A stretch of DNA of 64,000 nucleotides from Marchantia polymorpha subsp. ruderalis (taxonomy: Eukaryota > Streptophyta > Marchantiopsida > Marchantiales > Marchantiaceae): the NCBI GenBank assembly GCA_037833965.1, contig AP031352.1:27654501-27718500 (forward strand). The letters are read 5' to 3'. Numbering within the stretch: the first letter of the stretch is position 1; each line of letters starts with the position of its first letter. The translations under genes were made by a program, and so were the position numbers. Shown here in pieces: positions 589 to 58,026 of the stretch. Below the pieces are notes generated by a model. That model made no database searches. It worked only from the letters and a program-made list of their open reading frames with translations, and was not told the origin of the DNA.

Positions 589-3500
589 CTAGGTGAACTT
601 GCTGAATAATGTATCTTTTACGACTTTTGGCCTGATCTTCGGTCGTGGTAATGGTGACCTTGGATCTATACCACATTTTTTCAGTAAACGACCTCTGACA
701 CCCAGTCTGGGCGATTTTACAGATCTCTTTGCTGCCCCCGTACTCTGCGTTATACAACAGAAGACATGATCAGAACTTCTGTGAATATACATTTCATGAA
801 ACTTCTCTCTTAAGTTACTGTTTGTATTGTACAACTCTGGTCGTAATTTTTAAGGCTATCAATCATTTGAAGCGACCATTCTGCAATGTCTCTTCGTCAA
901 CAGAATAATTAAGCTTCTGAAACTTCCTAATGTCTTTGATGAAGTTTCATCAAGTGTCATAGTTTGTGAAAAGTAAACCTTCTTGGCTTTAGTTCGACTT
1001 GCGGGTGGAGAGTCATCCACACTGAAGTCTTGATCGTCCTCATCATCATCATCAATATTATCAGCTTCCTCCGGAGGATCGAATTCCTCCTCATTATCAT
1101 CAAAAATCTTCGTGAAATGATCTGCCTGAAGAATTAACATATCCTCTTTTGTGAGGGGCACCACCAGTTGATGATTTAAATTGAAACTTGAGAAGTCAGG
1201 TTTGCTTTGGGAGAAAACGTTCATACTACAGAAAATTTAGCTAAGACAATGTCAATAATACCATGCTAGAAATATTTCAAGATTCAAAACAAACCTTATG
1301 TTACTGAAACTGATATAACCATGCACGTGAGGGTATTGATCTGTTATGTGATGCATACAATACTAACATACAATTTAGAAACAGTGTGATAGAATGATCC
1401 AAAGAAGATTATATCCATGATACATATACGCGATGTTTTATATATGTATATGTCTTGTGAAGTCCAAGAAGAAAAAGGTTTGAAGTCAAGCCTACCATTT
1501 TCACTTGTGGAACGTTTAGTTTCAAAGTTGACGGTGACTGTAACTGTTACATATCGACAAATAAGTATTTATTTTCGGTTATGTGCGAATCTCGTAATCG
1601 ATCCAAAGAGAAATTTCGGACAAATTCACTGAACACGATACTGCAGAGCGAAATGAAATGACATGCATTTTTTCTTTGTAAGAAGCAAACCTCAATTAGA
1701 GTTGATGCAGGATCTCGACAATCTGCTGATAACGAAGACGGATACTCCTCCTGTGAAAACTGCATAGGAAGCATAAAAGATATAACACGAAATTTCTTTT
1801 TGGAGAAAGAAGTTGTCACAAATCAGTGGCTCAAAAATTGATTTCAAAAATCCAGAGTACGTACCAAAGTATTCCGAGATAGCTCTTCTACTATTAGACT
1901 TCCAGACTGAGAAATTTCCTTGGGAACCTCCTCACCTTCTTTCATCTGAAGGTGAAGAAGAGTTATTACACTAAGACATTCTGGCCTTCAGATTTTAAAC
2001 ATGTCGCGTCCAATAGAATTGCAGTCTAATGAGCCTTCGCCAGGTTTTCTAGACATTAAACATATGCTGGACAAAAGAGAAATCCTTTTGTTAGACAGGA
2101 AAAATTGGTCACGATCCAACTCGAACCATTTCGGTAGCATAGATACCTGGCTAAGCCAGAATTTCAGCCATTTTGTAAGACTTAACACTCCTTGTCGCTC
2201 CCATTTGGTAACACCAGAAGGATCTCTATTCAGCTTTTCCATATAGTACGCCCCTGATCGCCTGCAAAAACTAGATAATTAGTTCTAATCACCTATCGTC
2301 ATTCATTAACCGCGATGTGACAATTATAAATCTAGGCGAAGATCTTCAGGACCTAATCCAGCTCTAGAGTCTAGTTTCAGAGCAAGAACCAAATTTATTT
2401 ACATCAAAACTGCTCTATTTTTTTTACTTGTAATGTGCGTAGATGCTGATTACCCCATTTTGGTTTTACTTTATTAGAAAATACCTAGAAACTTTGAAAT
2501 TGGTTTGATTCAGCAACTCACCACATTAACTCTTTGTAGAATGGAAATCGAAATTTGGATTTCACTTTCAACCTCTCCTCCATTTGCCATGTTTTCAGAC
2601 GTTAAGGTTGGGACAAGAACTACTCAAACAAAACATGCAACTTTATTATCGATAAGGTGACGGCTTTAAGGTTGTAGGTAATGAAGGAAATAAGATGATC
2701 TAACGAAGCTATTGGCGTCCGAGTGTTTACTAGAAACATGGACAAGTAACAGCTCATCTTCGAATGATGAAAGGAGATCTGAGTTGGATATATTTCAAGC
2801 TGCAGTGATAAATTGTATCCGGTCAAAAAGTTTCCACCAAGTACTACTGAATCCATTGGGGTGACAACACAATGTGACCATCCTCCAGGCCTGTTCGAGA
2901 ACCACATAAAGAGATTGAAGTAAGCAAGCAACGATATTCATTTGGCCTTCTCCCCATCTAAGACCTACAACATTGTCAAAGATTGCGTCATCCAAAGTTC
3001 ATCGTATCCTTTAATGTCTTCATAAAGCTTTGCAATTTTCTAATCCTTGACTTTACCTGATGAGCTGAAGCTCGTTTCTGCAAGTGTAAAACATTGCCAA
3101 AAGATAAGCGGAGAACTTACAGTAAAAGCGTGTCGCCGGGGGCTAGCTCTAATTTCTGACATCCGCTAACGCGATCTGCAAAGAAGACGCTGGCCTGCGA
3201 TACCAAAACACTTATTACAACCCAGTCATAAGTAAGTCTACTGTAGGAAGCCGGGCAAGAAGTTTGTGCCAATACAGCCCACTTGGACTACAGTGGTATG
3301 TCTTTCAGCTTTACGTGTAATGCTCGTTCAATTATTGCTGCGCAACGGGTGCTTCTTTTTCATAAATGGGTTCTGATTTCTATTGGATGTGAAGCTACAT
3401 CCATCCTATGGGGAGGATTATGCACCAGGACATCTATAGTAGTAGAATTTAATCTCAATCAACCTCAAAGATCTGAACAATTCTGCTTACAATAAAAGAC

Positions 3501-6500
3501 TCTGATAACTTTGCGTGGAAGGTTCACGGCGAAGACCAGGGCATGAACAGTTAATGGCATGCCAATCGACCCCAGTTAAACTAGACCCAGATAGTATCGG
3601 GGGTCTATCCCCTCGTTTCATACAATTTCATACTTATTTATGGGAACACCCCATCATCCGATGAAATTGGATCATCGTCCAAGGGCCTGTGCTTACCCAT
3701 CAACACCCGCTCCACCCGAAACGAAATACGAGCAAACGAAGATAACCAGAGATAACCAAGGAAAGCAAAGACTGAAGGTCCATCTCAAAAAATACGAAAA
3801 GGACATGTTCATGACACGTGTCGGTCCAACATTAGGAGCCATATATAAACACTAGACACATGGATACTGTAATCGATGGGGCTAAAATTCTATGCCGATT
3901 TATCTCGATTGTACTTTCTAGGTGGTATTTCCACCCATGTCCAGGATTTCCCCATCACTTTCGCAGAACTTCACAACATTGGGAGGTGAGGTTGATGTTC
4001 CCGGCTTGGGCGTTGGAAACAAAAGGAGAGAAGAAGCAAAACTCTCGAACGTATGAGAGTAGATTCTTCAGAATGCGGGAATCTGGTCATTAACTAGGAG
4101 TGCGTTTGAGCTAACTATAGGTTGGTGTAGGTCTTGTTGGTCCACTACCGCCGCATTCCTGGTATCGCGGAGCATGCTTCTGACATTAGCCAGCCTGACT
4201 CCATACGATAAGGACAGCCGAGACAGGATGCTCCTAAGTTGGTAGAACACTGACATGTTTGTCGATAGAAAGTCGACATCGTCTCGGTCATATATATGTA
4301 CACCGTCTCATCAATCGAAATTCCAAATTTCTCTGCCGAAACACAACGGACGAAGCGGTCGAAGTATCTACAGACCTAAACTGCTGCATGCAGGAAAAAA
4401 CTTGAAAGTTATGGGGTTCTCGTGACTTTCGGCGATAAAGATTGTGCCAAAGACAGAGTACTTGCTGGAGCAGGACTGATCGCAGTCTATGGCACCGTAC
4501 CTGTCTATCCGAAGAAGCCCACTCCTCGAAAGCCATAAGGTTGCCGCGTGTTGGGGGAATCACTAGGAACACCTTCCGCCCACTGTCAGAGTCATCCCAC
4601 ATTGACATTCATTACAAAACGAGATCCTGTACGAAGAAAAACTAACGCCAAATCTATTTCCAATAGTCCGTTCGCATCGCGGGACTGGAGCAGAATCGGG
4701 CGTGGGCCGGAATGGCAGATGCTCACATCGACGCTACGTCCGATTGGAATAAAGTGAAAATTGACGATTTAGTGATAGACTGAAAATTCTTCAATGTGTC
4801 TGATCACGATCTGCGGAAAATTTACCGATTTCAGGCTTCGCACAGATATGAAGTTCTCGAGATGAGTACCCCGGTTGCACACAGAAGGAAAAGATCAACA
4901 CACGTACGATTAAACAATACATCGATCTAATTCTGTACAAGTTTGCGGCAGCACAAGATAATTCCCGCTATAGAGCAGTGAATTCGGTATGTCCATCGTC
5001 AAATTGATCAAAAGACATCAGTCACGTACTATGATGGAAGAGCGCAGCGATTGCATCAGATGCACTACCACTGCTACCATCAGGGATATTCAGTCAGTTC
5101 CTTATTGACTTTTCCAAAACGTAATTGACTAGTATTGAGAATCAGACTTGAAATCTGCTTGAAAGTTGGAGCGTCTAGAAACACACCTCAGCACATGATA
5201 CCACACTGAGGAGCCCCCAAAATCGATGTGGAAGTCCATGAAGCAGCCTGCGCCGCTCATCAACGTGTACAGTTGGACCTGAAACAAGCTCATCCATTTC
5301 TTGTCACAAAAGGATCGGCGGACAAAAATCTCAACAAACTGGCGCAGCTGAAATTCGAAGTTTGTGACGTTTCTAACTTTTAGTTGGACAATGAGCCTGT
5401 CGAAAGACGAAAAAATTAATCGCACGGAAAGATTGATTTTATGAGCCGGTGAGAACAGCTTCTAAGGTCTCCGCTCTACTCGCTTCGATGATATGAGGAG
5501 TCCGTGAGCAATAGTTACCGGAGTCTATTTTTTGCGTTCCCATGCTTATTCTCATGAATAATCTCATAAAGATAACGTGCTCGGCCGATAAACGTTAATG
5601 CGTAGATTGTTGTAGCTAATGACTGTAAGTTTTACTTCGTCGAAATAATTGACTTTGTTGAGAGGAAAACAACGCTTCAAAATGTTCATGGTTCCTGTTG
5701 TCCCTTATCCTGTAAGTTGACCTGACGGTGGTTGATTCTTGCGTAAATTGACGTGTTATTAAAAGCGTTGATTTCTTTCACGGATGTCTCCAAGAGCCTA
5801 GGAAATCAGTCAAGGAAGGCCATCGTGTTCAGCGTCTTTCTTGGATAACGAAATCCGCATCTAATTTCGTCACGATGTCAAACGCTTAAGAATAAATAAT
5901 TCGCTCTGACTCCTCCCGCCTGGAACTGTACGGAATGATAGTACTAGTACTTAGCTTCGGAAATCTTTTAGAATCAGCCGCAAGCAAAGTATAGACGCAA
6001 GCTCTGCTAGAACAGAAAGCTGTAAGAGATTGAAACGCTCAGCTTGATTCGGTGTGGAAGTCACCTTCGGAGACGGCGTAACAGATGCAGGCCATGCCTT
6101 GTCCACTAGATCCAGCTCTTTGACCACGTCTGGCGCAGAAACCTGCAATTGCGACATCGTAATGTGTTCAGACATTGGTTGTTGATTGGGTGATCCAGAT
6201 CTATACGGGACGAGGTGTCGTTCAATGTCTGCCGTAAAACGACAGAAGCAGTAGCAATCGATGATACTGCGACGCCTATTGATAGCAGCAAACCACTGTT
6301 TAAGATGCCAATTGTTCAATTTGAAGCTAGGTAAAATTCTGTAGCCATCTTGAACCAGGGAGCAGACGACGAAATTTGAAACATATATCAACAAATTGGA
6401 CATTCATTGCGATAAATGAGAAAATTGTTTGTACCATTGCTTGGAGGGCTGTGTTTGCAAGATCCAAAGAGACGACATTCAGCAAGGGCTTCCTGGGACT

Positions 6501-8195
6501 TGGAGATGCAAAATACTCAACCCATTCTTGCATGGTGTATATCGGCCCTTCTGACTGGATTTAAAATGTGGAAACAGCCAGGTCCAGAGTGTTAGTGCCA
6601 GCGTCGGCTACAAGGTCTCGATCAATCCTTACTTTGAGCGCTGCATCAATGTTTTCTGTTTTAAATGGTATTGTATGCTTTACCAATTTAGATCGGCATA
6701 TTCTTCTTCAGAATCTGTTGTATTGTTTTGTTCACTACTTGTAGGGATGGTTCACGATCCTGCACTCTCAAGAAAGAAGATAATCTACCAAGGTCCCGGA
6801 ATGGCATAAACAGAATCCAGTCCGTCTTGAAGAACCCAATGCGTTTTTCATCCGCTGAGCACAGGATGGAGGCAATCAGTAGGGCCATGGAGTTCCAATT
6901 GACAACTTACCTGGGTGGTTACATCAATCGTGTTAATGAGCCGGCTGCGACCTACAAGGTCTGAGATCCTTTCCACTGTCAAAGCACCATCGGGTAATCT
7001 GCCAAGTTATCAGAATATGGTCAGGAAACTATTCTCCCCGCCTTCGTATACCCCAAAAGCATATGCCTAGCAGACTTGCTCGACTTGGTCAATAGCTGTA
7101 TTCTTCTGACATTCCGCCATGATTCGAGTTTCGATATAGCAATGTGAGTAGATTCAAACGGAAAACGAGTCTTAAATACTTTTCGGACAGAAGTACAGAC
7201 TCTGACTTGGCTCGGAGGGTCAAGGATCTGAGATAAAAAAGGATGATACTGCTATAATCCAAGCGAGCCTAAAGAAAATAACATCTGTGTCAATTGAGCT
7301 AATAGCTAAGTCCGTGGCTGCACCGATATGGTACATGTCGGTGCAGATTTCAACAAACCTAGTATAAAATCGCAGACGGTTGGCTACGAAAGATCATGGG
7401 ATAACTTGAAATGACAGGCAGTCTTGTGATAGAATGAGCAATCCCTCAATTCATGTGCAATTCAACATTATTTCACGATACTCGCGCTAAAAGATTCAGG
7501 ATTGCGAACAGTGCGTCGAAACCAGGTAAATGAACTGTGAAGTGAAATAATCGCCTCATCGACTCCGCTACGTGAGAACAAAGTTCATAAGATAGGAAGA
7601 AAGGAAAGAGGGATAACAGTTGGACTTCGTGGGAACAATTGCCAACAAGTTACCTTTGACACCCTGTGCAAGGGATTATAAACCCTAGTGCAGAAAAATA
7701 GACTAAGTGAAGAGAAAGAAACCAAGGATTCTGGAAATAAGTTGAAGGGATTCACATTCTGTACGGAAGTAGCAGAAGCCATCTGCTGTGGCAGAAAGAG
7801 GTCTGAAATGTCATCCTCTTCGATACCACTTTAGTCCAGAGTTTGATTCAGTAGGTAATATAGCTCATGGTCAAAAAAACAAACCAATTAGTGGGAGACG
7901 ATCAGCTGACTCTCACGAAATTACACCTGATTCCGAGCGCAGATGGTGGGACATCGGAGGTCCGCACAACACATGGATTTCGAAATCCAGTGGTATGGAC
8001 ATGGTCCGCAAGTTCAGTTGCTGCAACATAATCGATGGTAAAGTTTTCAACAACGGGCTGCTCCTCAAACTTAAGTACAGCTCGTGCCAGCTTCTTATGC
8101 TGCACACGCAAAGAATCCGAGAAACCCGTGCTATCCAGGCGCGCATAATCAACCGGGACCCTAGCTCTCTTAGAGCGCCTTGAACCTTGCTCCAT
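589..8195 (-). CDS. JmjC histone lysine demethylase, KDM2/KDM7 (JHDM1)-like
   Basis: Predicted Fe(II)/2-oxoglutarate histone lysine demethylase, nuclear, 526 residues in 15 exons. Exons in coding order: 7927-8195, 6911-6998, 6435-6554, 6065-6142, 5187-5278, 4501-4582, 3121-3194, 2792-2890, 2522-2590, 2147-2261, 1865-1945, 1691-1759, 1496-1537, 979-1125, 589-744. All phases close. The start is the first ATG after an in-frame TAG. The JmjC core carries [15 protein letters not shown] (Fe ligands H202 and D204), K219 in [11 protein letters not shown], and H274 in [11 protein letters not shown]. The H-to-H spacing of 72 and H-to-K spacing of 17 match what I recall for human KDM2A. The usual 2-oxoglutarate-contacting Thr three residues before the first His is Met199. 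Upstream, [19 protein letters not shown] and QEWVEYF match the KDM2/7 linker; downstream, [16 protein letters not shown] matches the helical segment. No PHD, CXXC, F-box or LRR is seen. The tail is acidic then basic. Exons 12-15 rest only on splice sites and phase. Confidence 0.85.
2591..2791 (-). other. Probable U12-type AT-AC intron in the JmjC gene
   Basis: On the minus strand this 201-bp intron begins ATATCC and ends AC. A perfect minor-spliceosome branch motif CCTTAAC lies at 2601-2607, about 11 bases before the 3' end. No GT-AG pair here keeps the JmjC alignment. Using AT-AC joins ...LSLQLEI to WQMEERLKV with exactly the length of animal KDM2/KDM7 proteins in this segment. The 5' site matches the consensus for six bases and then diverges. 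Confidence 0.75.
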
Positions 8196-12589: not shown

Positions 12590-14157
12590 GATGATTTTAT
12601 ACTTGATTGTATGGATGGTAGCAAGCATCTCATGGTCGAAGATTTCTTGCTGCATCCAATACTGTTGCAACAATTTTGCATACTACAGTGCTTCAATTGC
12701 CTTTCCAAGAATGTATCTTTGACTTTCGTCGGCTTCCACTTCATCTTTTGGCATAGGATTGGTGGAGAGATTTTGCACAATTTACTCTTGAGTCAAAACA
12801 TAAGCAATTTCACACTCAGCAGTATAGTCAATGAGATTGCAAATATTTATTGGGTTCTTATACCGAAGCTTTTGAACATGCTCTTCAAGGTCCTTGATCA
12901 CCTCACGATCAATAAGCACGTCTTTTGGAACCAATGTCACATTAGCATTGATGGTGCAAATTTAGCAAAAACAGTTGCAGATTGTTCATGGCTTCACATT
13001 CATGCTTTAGGTTGCAAAAGCAATGCGCATAGCCTCGAGTAGGTTAATCTTCTCAGGGTTTGCTTTCTTGTACTGAAGTCATTGAATGAGGAGATGATTG
13101 AAACAACGCCGATAGTAAGCCTTGAGACATCGGATTATTTCTCTGTCGCAAGGCTGTATCTTTGAGTTCATGTTTGGTGGCAATGAAGACATGATTGTAT
13201 TGCGGAGTGTAACAACATATACAAGCTGCATTACTGGAATATATGCGCTGCAGTTGTCTATAATCAAAAGAATATTACGTCATGACATCCACACATCAAA
13301 CCCTTTCAGCCATTCAAGAAAGATGACTTGTGTCATCCAGACATTTGAATTGCTTCGGTACTTGCATCCACAGTTGTCTCGGTTGATATTTTTGAAACAG
13401 AAAGGGTTTTTGTATTTGCTAATGCCAAAAACTGTAGCTTGTATGAGCCATCAGCATTGTAGCACATAGCCAATGTGAAACGCTCTTTGTTTTATTTGCG
13501 TCCTTCAAACTGATTTGTGACTAAGGAATTAAGATGTCATATGCTAGTGAAAGTAAGTCGATGATTTGGCAGTGAGCATGAACTATCATGCTGCTTTTAG
13601 TTGTAAAACGATCTAGTTTCATCCATGTTGTAGATGTTACGTCGCTCATACTGATCCACATTGAACGAATCTGCGGCAATCTCTCTTCATTCAGAGCCAT
13701 GTTGATGGATCCAAATTCCTCAAAGCGGCGGTAGTATATGATGTCATGACGATTTTTGAATGTCTCCATCCACCCATTTGAGAACTCAAAGGCTCCGTAG
13801 CCAAGGTAGAGCTCATTCAAGCAAATAAGCATCCTTCTATTTGATGATGTCATATGACATGTTGACTTGGTCATAATATGTGAGAAATCACAAGTACAAA
13901 GATGACTCCATTAGTGGATATTTCACAGTCCGCTGCCGCTTTGCCGCTAGATTCACATCCTCCTTCTTGGCAAGGATTTCAACTGAATGTTTGAGCATCA
14001 GAGAAATTGTTCCCTGACTGTCAGATTTGTTATGCGTATCTTGAAACCACTTGATCAAGTCTGCTTCCGTGAGCAATGGATGTTTTTACTTGGGCTCACA
14101 AAGAGCTATCAGAACCTCGTTGGTCATGTTTGTATTGGTGGATCTCTTTGAAGTCAT
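12590..14157 (-). pseudogene. Tigger/pogo-type transposase remnant (DDE_1, CENP-B-like)
   Basis: Broken transposase of a Tc1/mariner-superfamily Tigger/pogo element. The N-terminus starts near 14157 and reads LLTEADLIKWFQDTHNK after a stop. Next come the CENP-B-like helix-turn-helix stretch with FSNGWMETFKNRHDIIYYRR (about 13.8 kb), NIYNMDET (about 13.62 kb), IDNCSAY (about 13.26 kb) and LPPNMNSKIQPCDREII with KAYYRR (about 13.1-13.2 kb). The aspartates of MDET, DNC and QPCD, which form the family's catalytic triad, remain. Several in-frame stops and at least one frameshift mean it cannot be made as one protein. A C-terminal part with VKP-TI-NCF-like spacing runs to about 12.6 kb. Element ends and target duplication could not be fixed. 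Confidence 0.85.
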
Positions 14158-18025: not shown

Positions 18026-19388
18026 CTAGGATGCCTTGCTTGAATCTGGGCTAGATTGCTGCTGGGAATCAGACAAACTCTTCTCCAGGCGGCGGATTGT
18101 AGCCGTAATGCCATCTACCTCGGGCTCATGTCCAGCAGTTGGCATGACTTTGTTTTTAGCCTCCGTTGCCTCAGCCTCCTCCGCTTGTCGCTTTAATGTG
18201 GTTTGAAGGTAGCCTGATGCAAAAAAGTAGAACATTAATAATTTATTTGAGCAAACAAATATCCACAATCAAAACGAGATGTGGTACCAGATAAGCCTGG
18301 AAACACAGCAAGTCAATCAGCGAGAAAGATTCTGTAAATGCTGCTAATTGTTTTTAGTGAAACGTCAACAAGCCGGTCTAGTAATCTCGTAATTGATGTT
18401 CGTAGGGGAAGTAGATTTCCGAGTGCTTACCAAGTGGCAGACAGAAAGTCGCTCCCAGAACAGAGCCCAGAGCGGCAGCTCTAATTCGTGAAGAGGGCGA
18501 ACCTGGTACTGCGCGTTTCGAATCAAACAAATACGGTGTCAAACCCGCGTGACCTGTTGTACCCACCTGTTTCCAGCCAACCTTTCACTTTCACGAACGA
18601 TTCTACTTGACACATGGATTCAAGGTAGACTTGAAGCTGATATTTGAGGCCGAGGCGGATCGGAGATTTTTGCACAAAAAGAGGGAGCGAAACCGTGGTT
18701 CAGGCATTGCAACGAGCGCAGGAGATCAAGGGGTGGAATGCGTACATGCTAATCCAAATGCGGCTGCGGTTGTGGAACCTGCAACTGTCACATTCCATGT
18801 GTCGTGAATGTCGAACTCTCTCGCGAAGTACCATTGCGCTCCACAAAAAATGGCTGTGAAAACCCCTAATCTGGCACCACCCACAACACTACCTCGCGTG
18901 ATTCTTATCACTCTCTGCTCCACCATCTCCCTCCACATAAACCTTTGAGTCCTCAAGTCTTTGCCAGCCTGCATGGGCGGAAGAATTTCGCCATAGTGCT
19001 GTGAAGAAAGTGCACCAAATCAGGAAAGATCAGGTGCGAGAAATGCGAAATCCAGCGAATCATTCGAAAGTCATCGAGAGAACTTCAACAATCAACATGG
19101 AAAGTACTGAAATACAGTGTACATTCCCAATTCCGATGCAAGATGAGGCGGAAAGAGTGAGATTTGAAGAGTTTGAAACAAAGAGAATTAATCTCTAACA
19201 GCAGCATCTACAGCTCGACCCTGCAACCGAAATGCATGCATTTATCTCAACAAATTTACAGGGAGGAGAAGCCTGGCGACACTTACGGAAGATGCGAGAG
19301 CTTCTTTACAGCCGCCGTAAAGCATTCCAGCTAACACACCGAACGAGGCTTTGCTCCCCCAATCATCAAACTCGTCGCTCGTAGTCAT
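18026..19388 (-). CDS. Tim17/22/23-family protein, TIMMDC1-like complex I assembly factor
   Basis: Predicted 204-residue mitochondrial inner-membrane protein that would help assemble the membrane arm of respiratory complex I. Four exons: 19287-19388, 18746-18998, 18431-18502, 18026-18213; phases close and all introns are GT-AG. The Met-Thr-Thr-Ser start is the only in-frame ATG before the first splice site. Four glycine-rich hydrophobic stretches fit the Tim17 fold: FGVLAGMLYGGCKEAL (about 16-31), GGARLGVFTAIFCGAQWYF, VTVAGSTTAAAFGLA, and RIRAAALGSVLGATFCLPLG (about 124-143). The order AGMLYGG, then R-rich helix, then the last membrane segment followed by a charged coiled-coil-like tail, parallels human TIMMDC1. 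It is shorter than the human protein. Alternatively it is another PRAT-family member such as an OEP16-type channel; the tail favours TIMMDC1. Confidence 0.75.
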
Positions 19389-22509: not shown

Positions 22510-22830
22510 CAATCTAAGCAACTTGCATGAAAATTTCATGAAATTTTTTTGGAATTGCCGCTTGAATATCACTTCATCAAATAATCCATAGGATAAAGTT
22601 GTGACAACGTTTATCAGATAAAAAAGCAGATCATGTAAAATCACAAGATCACATATCAATAGTATAACAATTTAAACAACTTGCATACCATGCCTTCCTT
22701 TTCTTTCATGAAAAAATCTTGGAATTGCCGCATGAATATTACTTCATCAAATAATTCATAGAAAAAAGTTGTGACAATGTTTATCTCATAAAAAATCAGA
22801 TCATGTAAAATCACAAGATCACATAGCAAA
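22510..22830. repeat. Tandem duplication, period 170 bp, inside the copia element
   Basis: GGAATTGCCGC occurs at 22551 and again at 22721, and about 130 bp of surrounding sequence is repeated with few changes, including a shared TCATGTAAAATCACAAGATC. It falls in the upstream part of the reverse transcriptase region, so it arose after or during decay of the element. Confidence 0.85.
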
Positions 22831-38209: not shown

Positions 38210-39995
38210 TCACGAGGATTGGTTGACTGCAAAGTGCTCAATTTGGATATCTTCTCCGTCCTGCTTGAAATTCCCATCATTTCGTTTTCTCATGAAGTAC
38301 CCGTAATTCATGGGCCGATATCTAGCGGGACTGTTCTCGCTCAATAACTCTGGCACAGGAACGACATTCGTCGCTGCTACGGGATTGAAGAAAAAGGGGA
38401 AGGACAGCCGTGCTTTGTTCTCGTTCACAACTACTTGATGCTCAACGCTTTGATACCTGTCGTTGCTCCACATCTGCAAGCAAGCGCAACTTGTCACGAT
38501 TGATCTCACATCCAAAAGTACCATGCCTGCCGGTCACCTGCTCGACTCTGCTTGCACTCTGAAAAGCACCGGCTCATGAATCTTCAACCAGATTCTGGTC
38601 CTCCTGTTGACGATGGGTATTGTTTAGCGTCCAAGGAAATCCTTCGGGAGTATGGGACCGATGCCGTGAGGTTATCAAGCTATGTTTTATGAATGTATGA
38701 GTTTTCAGCCAATAGTATGAAATGGGAATAACTGGAATTGTGGACTTTTGTAATCGAACTCCTCTGTCTCAGCCTTCTACAACATTAAAGAAAAGTAAGC
38801 ATCTTTCTCAGACGACGATGCCAGCGTGACTGGAGTAACATGTTGAGCATATTACCTGGAAGACGGCACCAATGTTGATGACAAAGGCATCTCTTCTTGG
38901 TCTGACTCCGATCCACTTCCCATCCCTCCGCCTGACTTGAAGGCCTCCCACTTCATCCTGCACTAGAATAGTGAACGCACTTGGGTCCTTATGCCTGCTT
39001 ACACCTAGAGCCAGCTCCGGAATAGGACATACCGGGTAATAATTTAGCCGAATCGGTGAAATGTGTTTCTCGAAATACTGATGAAGATGCTCTGCTGGAA
39101 GCCCAAGACTCTGTGACAGTATCTTCAAAAGCCGAAATGCCAGCTCCTCTGTTGCTTTGGCATATATCTCACAAGCGTCTCTATGGAATTTCAAACCCAG
39201 AAACAAGTAATGTCTTAGAGAAAAGTGACAACAGATATCTTCTGAGGATTTTTGAAATAAAATATGAAGCAAAAACACGGAACACCGGATACGAGATACA
39301 ATGTAAATGAAAGCTGCAGTTCAACCGGAGACCTGCCAAAAGTTTGGCTGAAGGTAAACTGATCATTATGTGCAAGTATAATAAGTAATCGAATGTTGCA
39401 CGTCCGGCATCTGGTCAGAGGTTAAACAGAAAAGTAAGTACGGTTACGAACTATACCGCAAGCTCGAAGGATTCTGCGGCCACTGGTTTCCAATAGTTAT
39501 CTCAGTGGTGCAATGCTCATCAGGAAGCGCACACTGATCTCGGACGAGGTAGTCAAAGACCTCCTTCCAGTCTCTGTAATTTTTCGTCAGCTCCTCATTG
39601 TAGTACCCCATTGGCTGTTCAAAAGTTCGATTGATCTTTTTCTTCTCCTCTAGCGGAAGGGTGAAGAAAGCAATAGCTTGTTCCTCCAGGTTATCAATCA
39701 CGCTCGCAGGTACACCGTGATTCACAACTTGAAAGAAACCCCACTCTTCAGCTGCGTTCCCCACTTCGCGTATAACCTTCCTTATACCTTCTTCATCGCC
39801 GGAGCCGATGGGTGCCAGGTCGATCACAGGTATCTGTTCGGTAGGTGACTCGAAAAACTCATTGTGCTTGAGTTTTGGCCGGAATTCTGGTTCTAAAACA
39901 AAACAGAAGTCTGATGGATCCAATGCTGGAGGAGAATGATCGTCTTTAATTTGAGTATTTTCAAAACGTTCAACCAGTGAATCTTCGATTCCCAT
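38210..39995 (-). CDS. 2-oxoglutarate/Fe(II)-dependent dioxygenase, DOXC class
   Basis: Cytosolic oxygenase of the plant DOXC group that oxidises small molecules; substrate unknown. Predicted 375 residues in three exons: 39457-39995, 38856-39180, 38210-38473, all GT-AG with closing phases. The N-terminal DIOX_N domain carries IPVIDLAPI and WGFFQVVNHGVP. The core has the iron triad H243-x-D245 in SRHKDPS and H300 in SVEHQVV, and the 2-oxoglutarate-binding R310-x-S312 in NKARLSFPFFF. H-to-H spacing of 57 and H-to-R of 10 fit the family. GYYNEELTKNYRDWKEVFDYL-type spacing and a tail ending IQIEHF resemble the Arabidopsis At3g19000/At3g19010 clade rather than flavonol or gibberellin enzymes. A clean acceptor about 25 bases upstream of the ATG (near 40021) suggests an intron in the 5' UTR. 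Confidence 0.92.
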
Positions 39996-41730
39996 CGGCC
40001 CTGGTTTTCTTCCAAAAATGCTGAAACATACGATAATTGATAAGAATTCCACTCGAGAACCGACAGTCTCTGCGCTCTCAGAAGTGGGACGTAATACGAC
40101 ACGTTACTAGAGAACCAACTGTGATACCGGAGGAATGAAATATATCTGATCGCTATCTTGTGAAAGCTGCAGCCCGAATAAAGCTCAGCAGGGAAAGCAA
40201 CAACGAAGTAAGAATTTAGTACAAGAGCGTTGACCTTATCGCACACGACAATAGCAATATACCTCAATTCGCGTGGTTGACGAGGCCCAGAAATCAGTGA
40301 ATTCCTCGAATTCAGGCAAAAAGAACCTCACGTAGAACCCAAAAGAAACCAACAATGACAACCGTTGTTCACCTCTAGTTTCTGAGTTCTCTGCACATCA
40401 ATCCAAAGAAGGACGTCAACAAAGAATGTGCACAATTCTGATTACAGTTACATCACAATTCAGAGCCCACTCGCCAATTTGCCAGAACACTTGACCTTCG
40501 TGTGTTTGTCTACAAGCTGGCACCTCCCAGTTGCATACAACTGAAATGAGACAACATTCTTCCAATATTCTACTGAGCTCAGCGTATCTTCACCAGAATC
40601 AATGCAGAACAAGAGCAGGTGCATGTCGGGAAGTCACGTACTTTAATGTAGCACGCTTTCTCTCTCGTCGTGGTGAAGAGTGGTCCGGCGATCTACACTG
40701 AGTTGTGAGTCTTGTATCTTACAACCTCCATCGTTGTTTAGTTTCCTTCTTGAACAGCTCCGGTGCAATGTATCCTACCGCCTTCCCGACTGCAGAGAAG
40801 TCAGCTCAACCACAGAGTAGAAGATATGAATATAATCGTCCTCATTTGTATAAAATAACAACAGCTGTATGCAAAATTGGCTTTTTGAGACAACAGCCAA
40901 TCAACGAAGTGAACACTTCAAATTGACAATGAGAAGCCTGAGCTGCGAATTAAAAATTCCTCCAAACAAAAAGTTTCCTTCACAATGCTGACCCACCCTC
41001 TACTGCACCGCCAGAGGCTCTCTTTCTGTGGTGGCGAAGGCACTACCTGCAGCCGGGACCCAGATTCGCACAATGGGCACAAGGATCGTTCACCCCAAAG
41101 GCTTCAGCCGGACCTCTCCAGCAGGTAAATTGGGGCCGGCCAGTATACAACATATGCAGATGACATAACACGCAGAATATCGTACGGGAAAGAAGACAAA
41201 GAAGATGTCAAGGGGTATTGAGCGAAGCATACCAAGAAGGAAGGAAGATATTCTTCCTCGGGTGTTATTAGGACGAGCTAATTGGACAGTGCTTTGGGTT
41301 ACCCCTGATCTGCAAGCAGGGTAGAATAATGAAGGTCTCTCTAAAATCCATGGTCTAGTGTGCACTGGGTAGATCTTTGGATGACCATGCTTTTACTTCA
41401 CTAAGTGCCCATGTCCATTTATTTTCGTTCAGTATTTTTTCTCATGCATCAACAAAGCTGACTTTGAACCGAAAGGTTTTCTAACTGGAACGCGTGTGCA
41501 CTGTACGTACTTTATCTAAATATCACAACATTTTGCAGATAATTTTCGAGTTCATCTTTGCCGGTACATTTGTGAGGTTTCCAGCGGTGGCCTGGGAAAA
41601 GGCTCAGGACACTTGTCAACCTTGTGTGGCGTTAAGTTACACAAGAAATGGTACAGGTTTTCTAGAAATTGCTTTCTAAAGATCTCAATACATACTTAAG
41701 TTTATACAAAATTTTGTATGATCCCAATAA
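39996..41730. other. Upstream region of the dioxygenase gene and spacer
   Basis: Probably contains the 5' UTR intron and promoter of the minus-strand dioxygenase. Nothing further is recognised; open frames are short and unrelated to known families. Confidence 0.4.
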
Positions 41731-52400: not shown

Positions 52401-53205
52401 GCCACCATCGTCCAAACACGTAGAAACGATGAAGGTCTGTGCAAGCACTAGCTCACTCTCAGGCCAATCAGAGAAGGGAAGAGTGATTTTTCCCAGTTTT
52501 CAACTCAAGACGTCTCTAAATTCTCAAAGCATGAAATAGTGAGCAATAAAACAATTTCTCCCGATGGATATATGAAATCCTCAGTGCACGGAATCCACGG
52601 ACCTTCAGTTTGGTTGATTGCTCATGCTGGCCATGACTATTCACTTAGTTGTGGTCCATGCAAGAAATGCTGACGTCTATTGGACTGTGAAAATTGAGGA
52701 AGATTTTCCGGCGCCTGTTCCTCGTCTTCTGTTGAGCAAGGATCCATCACTCAGGGAACAAAGAATAAATCTCGAAGTTTAAGGCTGTCGACATTCCGCT
52801 CAATGGGCTAAACAACACAGATCTGGGGAATTCAGCGGTATTTCAGCCCCTTGTGAAGTGGCAACTTGTCGGGCGACTAGGAGAGCATCTATCCTCGCGG
52901 GAATGATGGAGTAAATACGAAATTGAAAACCGCGAATCGAGAAAAATATGTTATACTGATCTATGAAAACCGTCGGTGCATGGACTTGAGGGAATTTTTG
53001 AAAACACTGCACAAACGGAATCATCAGCTTGTGTTCTGGTCAGATTGTTCCGCAACCTCTCATATTTAAGCACATTCTCTCAGAGACTTATCAAGCAGAG
53101 CAGAATTGACGACAACTCTCGTAGAGGTTTCGATCTATTCGGTAATGTTGTGACCCAGTCTACGATCTTTTGTCTTTCTTCGTTCCGTTCTTTGGAGTCT
53201 GGAAG
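49451..53205. other. Spacer between divergent KAS and root-cap genes
   Basis: The left part should hold the KAS promoter and the right part that of the root-cap gene. A 144-codon plus frame at 50726-51160 resembles no family I know. CTTTATATATTCC at about 52260 is a TATA-like site, but it is over 900 bases from the root-cap start; CATATTTAAGC near 53058 is closer. Otherwise AT-rich and featureless. Confidence 0.35.
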
Positions 53206-54264
53206 ATGGCTCGTGTTGCGATCATCCTAAGTGGTCTTGCAGTGCTCTTCCTGGCACTTGAGCTCCAAGTGCATGCAGACACTTCTGCGGGAGATCCAAC
53301 CACAAACTACGTAATGGAGACGCAGGTAGCAGGAGGTCCAGATCGGGCACATTGCCTGTCACAGAACTGCTTATACAAATTACTCACTTGTCCCGAAAAT
53401 TGTAGGAAGAGAGAAACCATCGCCCCTGGAAAGTCAGCGTGCTTCCTGAACTGCCTGAAATGTGAAGCCACCTGCAAACACAGGAAGCTGGATTGCTTCG
53501 GTTATGGAGCGGTTTGCTACGACCCTCGCTTCATCGGAGGGGACGGTGTGATGTTCTACTTCCACGGCCAGAAGGATAAGAACTTCTGTATCGTCTCCGA
53601 TCGCAATCTGCACATCAATGCTCACTTCATCGGCAAGCGGCCGGAGGGTCGCCACCGAGATTACACGTGGGTCCAAGGCCTGGGCATCATGTTCGACTCC
53701 CACAAGCTCTCCATCGCTGCCAAGAAGGTGGGAGTGTGGGACGACAATGTCGACCAACTGACCTTCTCTTACGACGGAGCGGACATCGACATCCCCGAGC
53801 TCGACGGCGCTATCTGGGTTTCTGCCGATAGGCAAGTCGTGATCGAGCGAACCAGCGAGACCAACAGCGCGCACGTTATGATCCACGAGCTCATGGAGGT
53901 GTCTCTGGACGTGGTTCCCATCACGGACGCGGACAGCCGAGTGCACAACTATCAGGTCACGGACGAGGATCGCTTTGCGCATCTGCAGATGCAATTCAAC
54001 TTCTTCGGCCTGTCTCCTTCCGCGCACGGAGTGTTAGGGCAGACTTATCGACCTAACTTCAAGACCACCGTCAAGACCGATGTCCCCATGCCCATTCTGG
54101 GCGGAGATGAAAAGTACTTGACCTCTTCTTTGCTATCTGCCGATTGCATGGTCAGCCAATTCTCCGTCGACGGCGATGTCGATTCCGCCGTGGCTGCTTC
54201 TAGCGTCATGCAATCGCCCGTTGTATGCAGCAGCAAGAACGGAGGAATGTCTTGCAGGCGATAA
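53206..54264 (+). CDS. Secreted root-cap/LEA-like family protein
   Basis: Intronless gene for a 352-residue protein of the plant Root_cap family (LEA-related, biochemical role unproven). The first 24 residues (MARVAIILSGLAVLFLALEL to VHA) form a clear signal peptide, so it should be secreted or enter the secretory pathway. A cysteine-rich segment (CLSQNCLYKLLTCPENC, then CFLNCLKCEATC, about 50-100) is followed by the family signature GAVCYDPRFIGGDGVMFYFHG, NFCIVSDRNLHINAHFIGKR, and near the end HGVLGQTYRPNF. Codon use is GC-rich compared with the surrounding spacer. I chose this ATG because it begins the signal peptide; the frame is open 12 codons further upstream from another ATG, which would bury the signal. 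The function is inferred only from family membership. Confidence 0.93.
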   Translation: MARVAIILSGLAVLFLALELQVHADTSAGDPTTNYVMETQVAGGPDRAHCLSQNCLYKLLTCPENCRKRETIAPGKSACFLNCLKCEATCKHRKLDCFGYGAVCYDPRFIGGDGVMFYFHGQKDKNFCIVSDRNLHINAHFIGKRPEGRHRDYTWVQGLGIMFDSHKLSIAAKKVGVWDDNVDQLTFSYDGADIDIPELDGAIWVSADRQVVIERTSETNSAHVMIHELMEVSLDVVPITDADSRVHNYQVTDEDRFAHLQMQFNFFGLSPSAHGVLGQTYRPNFKTTVKTDVPMPILGGDEKYLTSSLLSADCMVSQFSVDGDVDSAVAASSVMQSPVVCSSKNGGMSCRR

Positions 54265-57866: not shown

Positions 57867-58026
57867 ATACTTACCTGGGCGGGGCCTATCGCTGATCCGG
57901 AAGGGCGATGACCTAGGACGAGCCTCGCCATTGCACTACGGCCGGGCAAGTCGTAGCATTTCCCCAAGGGGAAAATGCGCGTCATAATTTATTGCAGCGG
58001 AGGGCTCGCGTTCGCGCGGCCCCCAC
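57867..58026 (+). ncRNA. U1: U1 spliceosomal snRNA
   Basis: RNA of the U1 snRNP that pairs with 5' splice sites. It begins with the invariant ATACTTACCTGG, whose ACTTACCT pairs with donors. Loop II holds ATTGCAC, the U1A-binding core. Stem III folds as GCATTTCCCC-AA-GGGGAAAATGC, followed by the Sm site in ATAATTTATTG and a final GC-rich stem closed by a TTCG loop (GCTCGCGTTCGCGCGGCC). The length of about 160 matches plant U1. The U1-70K loop reads GATCCGGAAG where GATCANGAAG is usual. I do not find the canonical plant upstream element or a TATA box at the normal distances; CCGACATCTT near 57821 is only a weak match. Confidence 0.92.

Follow-up and report, generated by a model that had tools for sequence, protein, structure and literature searches.

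Gene model

The 64,000-nt stretch analysed here (the window; Marchantia polymorpha subsp. ruderalis, contig AP031352.1, positions 27,654,501 to 27,718,500 of the forward strand) carries on its minus strand, at 8195..589, a 15-exon gene model with an ATG at 8195 and a stop codon ending at 589. The predicted product is quite probably a nuclear plant JmjC dioxygenase of the KDM2/KDM7 family, in which a JmjC module is followed by a Jumonji helical domain and then by a charged tail; reader domains were not recognised in it. Judged by its sequence, the gene is real and correctly assigned at the KDM2/KDM7 level.

The joined exons encode a protein of 528 residues (512 aa without a doubtful 48-nt exon 13), and their reading frame is uninterrupted, giving an intact-looking JmjC gene. 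Thirteen of the 14 introns are GT-AG and one is AT-AC, with sizes of 105-1306 nt. An initial annotation of the locus had given the same coordinates, 589..8195, and a protein of 526 residues, a length that the rebuilt model revises. Homology backs exons 1-11, and exons 12-15 were placed by frame, phase and splice sites alone. A reading in which the acidic exon starts at its own ATG was dropped because the phase does not fit; a cttcag acceptor at 1125 was taken instead. The features of the gene are listed below with their supporting evidence, where "profile" denotes a KDM2A/KDM7A/PHF8 profile described later.

7927..8195, minus strand: exon 1, ATG and N-terminal region (KDM2A alignment from model residue 21)
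6911..6998, minus strand: exon 2, N-terminal strand region (KDM2/7 profile E 1.8e-5)
6435..6554, minus strand: exon 3, linker with conserved Asn145 (alignment and profile E 3.3e-7)
6065..6142, minus strand: exon 4, linker through WP (profile E 0.023)
5187..5278, minus strand: exon 5, JmjC core with Met199, FHIDFGG (His202, Asp204) and Tyr212 (profile E 2.9e-13)
4501..4582, minus strand: exon 6, JmjC core with Lys219 (alignment and profile E 4.8e-6)
3121..3194, minus strand: exon 7, JmjC core (profile E 1e-4)
2792..2890, minus strand: exon 8, JmjC core carrying His274 (in GWSH); at the end of this exon the match to the Jumonji helical domain begins (Pfam, alignment and profile E 2e-9)
2591..2791, minus strand: intron 8, apparent U12-type AT-AC intron (donor ATATCC, branch-like CCTTAAC, acceptor AC)
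2522..2590, minus strand: exon 9, Jumonji helical domain (Pfam and profile E 1e-6)
2147..2261, minus strand: exon 10, Jumonji helical domain (Pfam and KDM7A match)
1865..1945, minus strand: exon 11, end of the Jumonji helical domain (Pfam and KDM7A match)
1691..1759, minus strand: exon 12, without homology support (open frame and splice sites only)
1496..1543, minus strand: exon 13, a doubtful 48-nt exon that may be skipped (supported by an open frame and splice sites alone)
979..1125, minus strand: exon 14, encoding a strongly acidic segment (supported by an open frame and splice sites alone)
589..744, minus strand: exon 15, encoding the basic C-terminal tail up to the stop codon (supported by an open frame and splice sites alone)

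The single AT-AC intron, intron 8 (2791-2591), looks to be of the U12 type, for which an ATATCC donor, a CCTTAAC-like branch site and an AC acceptor are the consensus. Its removal yields a gapless protein alignment to KDM2A across the junction (KDM2A side QLKIYNIEDRTRVPNKFRYPFY). The machinery for U12 splicing appears to be present in the host, since the genome has one match to U12 RNA and 13 to U6atac RNA (genes or copies).

Placement in the KDM2/KDM7 family

A search of the 528-aa model against solved-structure chains (E<=10) returned 19 distinct sequences. Fourteen of these are chains of KDM2A (5), PHF8 (4), KDM7A (2), PHF2 (2) and a KDM7 homologue, structure 3n9l, which we take to be the worm protein (1), with E-values from 5.4e-73 to 7.8e-39; the best values were 5.4e-73 for KDM2A, 3.2e-68 for KDM7A and 3.5e-63 for PHF8. 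The other five comprise four JMJD6 chains (E 0.024-0.026) and one unrelated chain at E 5, and no KDM3, KDM4, KDM5 or KDM6 chain matched in this search. Over the JmjC core the model is identical to KDM2A at 63 of 117 positions, to PHF8 at 60/117 and to KDM7A at 58/117. Corresponding figures outside the family are 31/107 and 22/106 for two JMJD6-like genes of the same genome (L002 and L004), 25/114 for JMJD6 and 16/108 for KDM5B.

Pfam (E<=1) places a Jumonji helical domain (PF17811) on the model at 32.6 bits, above the cut-off of 23.4, together with Cupin_8 narrowly above its own (29.1 against 27.4) and JmjC_2 under its cut-off. The helical segment has its best match in KDM7A, along the entire segment. 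In a 10-row tree, outside which stand the KDM7 homologue and the own-genome loci L003, L005, L007 and L008, the model groups with KDM2A, KDM7A and PHF8 with support of 97/99. The rows from which it is separated are those of JMJD6, the two JMJD6-like genes of this genome, KDM5B, JMJ14 and the genome's KDM5-like gene. We conclude that the predicted protein is assignable to KDM2/KDM7, and not to KDM2 or KDM7 singly; the narrower label is withheld because the branching order inside the KDM2/7 group is not settled.

These results bear out the initial annotation in part. All the KDM2/7 features that it listed are present (the linker, FHIDFGG, the post-JmjC helical segment and the distance to the second His), and the 10-row JmjC tree groups the model as it had supposed. 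As to its separation of the protein from the KDM3, KDM4, KDM5 and JMJD6 groups, the model does not cluster with the JMJD6-like or KDM5-like rows of the tree, which has no plant KDM3, KDM4 or JmjC-only rows.

Active site and likely catalysis

By alignment, the model keeps the iron triad (His202, Asp204 and His274), the 2-oxoglutarate lysine (Lys219) and the cofactor-pocket residues Asn145 and Tyr212. Residue 199, three places before the first iron His, is Met in the model and Thr in KDM2A, KDM7A and PHF8, the KDM2/7 proteins covered by this comparison (PHF2 and the KDM7 homologue fall outside it); the Thr is a feature that these share, and it is not known to be a requirement of the family. That Thr contacts 2-oxoglutarate, and Met199 may therefore reduce cofactor affinity; a literature passage on the Thr and 2-oxoglutarate was looked for and none was found. 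At this position of the alignment Thr is found in JMJD6 and L002, Ser in L004 and Phe in KDM5B and JMJ14, which shows that proteins of the JmjC fold do not always have Thr there.

The enzyme would bind Fe(II) and 2-oxoglutarate and may hydroxylate mono- or dimethyl-lysine of histone H3 (K36, or K9/K27), from which the methyl group would depart as formaldehyde. Fission-yeast Epe1 has been proposed as a non-catalytic scaffold or chromatin factor, and of the alternatives weighed here the one that survives best, an unlikely one all the same, is that the Marchantia protein likewise has the KDM2/7 fold with lost or weakened catalysis and serves as a scaffold or chromatin-binding factor. Met199, where the three KDM2/7 chains compared have Thr, and the lack of a recognised reader domain are in keeping with this, and retention of His202, Asp204, His274, Lys219, Asn145 and Tyr212 argues against it, as does the replacement of the same Thr by Phe in KDM5B and JMJ14 and by Ser in L004. 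Asp249 of PHF8 and Asp284 of KDM7A are named as iron ligands in a passage of PMC4316176, and a passage of PMC4678576 gives the KDM2 substrate as H3K36me1/2.

Reader domains and targeting

KDM2A carries CXXC, PHD, F-box and LRR domains C-terminal to JmjC, and KDM7 proteins carry an N-terminal PHD finger. Two PHD patterns and a strict CXXC pattern found no match on either strand of window positions 1-25000 or of a 9.6-kb stretch reaching 9 kb past the window on the 3' side, in a search that would miss a PHD finger whose pattern is interrupted by an intron. With a less strict CXXC pattern, three short matches were obtained in the same stretches. At E<=1 no CXXC, PHD, F-box or LRR Pfam domain was found in the model, the absence of F-box and LRR being judged by Pfam on the model and ten flanking open reading frames (ORFs). 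The nearest recognised gene to the 3' side on the same strand encodes an Abhydrolase_2 enzyme.

The C-terminal tail is acidic and then basic. It may bind nucleosomes or DNA, and either the basic part or a partner protein would carry the enzyme to nucleosomes.

Genomic setting and origin

The contig that holds the window is 32.6 Mb long, with the window at 27.65 Mb, and belongs to a genome of 241.5 Mb in 9 contigs. Its other recognised features are the following.

13524-13910, minus strand: match to the DNA-binding domain of a Tc5-type transposase, perhaps left over from a transposon
18729-19019, minus strand: stretch resembling Tim17, with a score below the Pfam cut-off
22534-22829: a pair of 126-nt direct repeats sharing 89% identity, their starts 170 nt apart
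38213-40103, minus strand: 2OG-Fe(II) dioxygenase gene with DIOX_N, at least 3 exons
53146-54261, plus strand: Root_cap (PF06830) match in a 372-aa open frame
57867-58026, plus strand: U1 spliceosomal RNA gene or copy, 113.8 bits

DIOX_N/2OG-FeII_Oxy and Root_cap, both found among the neighbours, are typical of plants. The same genome holds KDM5-like and JMJD6-like JmjC genes, and two joined exon stretches of the KDM5-like gene match JMJ14, presumably the Arabidopsis protein, at 4.6e-73. The plant setting that the initial annotation gave the gene is thereby borne out, and contamination is an unlikely source. A search of the genome with the protein gave 13 matches, 11 of them to the gene's own exons (counts are lower bounds); the other two (E 4.3e-5 with 29% identity, and E 0.013) fall at JmjC genes of other kinds, and no second copy was found in this search. 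Two further loci, L005 (G000:C7:27237881) and L003 (G000:C4:7989182), carry closely similar KDM4/5-type JmjC stretches on different contigs, one of which is perhaps a duplicate or dead copy. A genome search for IFT57, as a marker of motile sperm, gave one match below the cut-off and also matched in 3 of 14 control genomes, and is thus uninformative.

The gene would have come down vertically from an early eukaryote, and those flowering plants that have been surveyed would have lost it. A fungal or animal origin by horizontal transfer, which would fit a survey passage restricting KDM2 to animals (PMC2579438) and thus making a plant copy unexpected, is very improbable: the gene is divided into 15 exons by introns of 105-1306 nt that include an AT-AC intron, sits inside a 32.6-Mb contig among plant-like neighbours, and shares 54% core identity with its closest available relative. 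Viral contigs (51 pattern matches) and prokaryote genomes (42 pattern matches) gave no confirmed relative, a result uninformative on fungi or animals.

Strength of the assignment

Several observations weigh against the assignment or against the history proposed for the gene. The Pfam JmjC family scores 19.1 bits on the model, under its cut-off of 24, and this gene is not among the 10 matches listed by a genome-wide search with it. The tree, of 10 rows, is built on a short core, five of its seven inner branches are open, it carries a long-branch warning, and KDM3, KDM4, KDM6, PHF2 and fungal Jhd1/Epe1 rows are missing from it. Met199 departs from the family members compared, and vertical descent is proposed from a comparison in which this gene is the sole plant member of the family. 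The Pfam JmjC model is blind to this KDM2/7-type gene. A genome search with the helical-domain family gave no match, this gene included, nor any control match; the domain is split over four exons (8-11).

A place for the protein in one of the common plant clades (JMJD6 or JmjC-only), with no more than a resemblance to KDM2/7, is scarcely credible: JMJD6 is the next nearest family among the structure chains (E 0.024), but its E-value and that of KDM2A are some 70 orders of magnitude apart, tree support is 97/99 and the Jumonji helical domain is present.

Homology had guided the joining of the exons, and a profile free of the window protein was therefore run as well. It was built from alignment A1 by taking the rows for KDM2A, KDM7A and PHF8; the window row, present at the alignment step, had been removed. 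This profile was compared with all 2180 six-frame window ORFs of at least 20 aa. Eight of these match at E<=1 (2.9e-13 to 0.023), all on the minus strand and corresponding to exons 2-9, and profile positions climb from 6 to 239 as window coordinates drop from 7006 to 2521. In 20 random 64-kb sequences (order-1 Markov) the best profile match had E-values of 0.15 to 3.2, from which exon 4 (E 0.023), the weakest of the eight, is not far removed. An origin of the exons as chance open frames or a dead gene, to which the dependence of the last four exons on frame and splice sites lends itself, is thus most improbable given that the eight matches are collinear and are the only ones in the window at E<=1, and given random controls no better than 0.15, regular intron ends (13 of 14 GT-AG, one AT-AC) and a joined frame open throughout.

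Interpretation

The KDM2 subfamily is described as animal-specific in a passage of Zhou and Ma (2008; PMC2579438), whose set covers Arabidopsis, rice, poplar and a moss and whose table counts 14 moss JmjC genes; the passage agrees with the statement of the initial annotation that Arabidopsis and rice have no such proteins. In a 2022 survey, 332 JmjC genes from 21 plants, with a moss as the bryophyte, are divided into five groups, KDM2/7 not among them (PMC9029850), and the citrus set is likewise sorted into five classes in a passage of PMC4525380. No report of a plant KDM2/7 gene was among the open-licence literature matches listed, though an earlier report is possible; in the passages of one paper that matched both Marchantia and KDM2, KDM2 stands only in a reference. 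The predicted protein has an architecture new to an enzyme family that is itself known, and it occurs in a plant in which, going by the surveys, the family would not be expected. Surveys that start from Pfam JmjC could overlook such genes, because this family misses the present gene in both protein and genome.

If the assignment is correct, the KDM2/7 family predates the split between plants and animals and afterwards disappeared from some plants. A natural reader-less KDM2/7 enzyme would reveal what the catalytic module does alone, and for plants that have no orthologue of IBM1 the protein is a candidate demethylase of H3K9 or H3K36. Liverworts and mosses are argued from DNA methylation, in a passage of PMC5410703, to have no functional IBM1 equivalent, which would speak against an H3K9 role for the enzyme if the host is such a plant. 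We tentatively propose, as a possibility that we hold more doubtful than probable, an ancient KDM2/7 subfamily of the green lineage, built of the catalytic module and a charged tail without readers and having Met at the cofactor site, whose members would demethylate H3K36me1/2 or H3K9me1/2 in IBM1-less plants and which flowering plants would have lost. On the whole, the initial annotation holds for KDM2/7 kinship and plant setting; Met199 and the U12-type intron are additions to it. Its claim that reader domains are lacking holds for the PHD and strict CXXC patterns, and for F-box and LRR as far as Pfam on the model and flanking ORFs extends; its suggestion of a new way of finding chromatin is one that we, too, can only infer.

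Comparison with known systems

KDM2A (JHDM1A/FBXL11) shares with the model the JmjC module and the first part of the helical domain (63/117 core identity), and His212, Asp214, His284, Lys229, Asn142 and Tyr222 of the KDM2A chain all have counterparts. The model differs in lacking KDM2A's 13-residue stretch ahead of the core, in having Met for KDM2A Thr209 and in having no recognisable PHD or strict CXXC pattern 3' of JmjC, unlike the KDM2 subfamily. KDM7A and PHF8 share the JmjC module and the helical domain (E 3.2e-68 and 3.5e-63), whereas the model has no N-terminal PHD match (window 1-25000) and again has Met for Thr. The own-genome JMJD6-like genes L002 and L004 have the Cupin/JmjC fold in common with the model, but their core identity is low and they fall outside the KDM2/7 group of the tree. 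Fungal Epe1, a KDM2/7-like protein without reader domains and compared here by description only, resembles the model on both counts.

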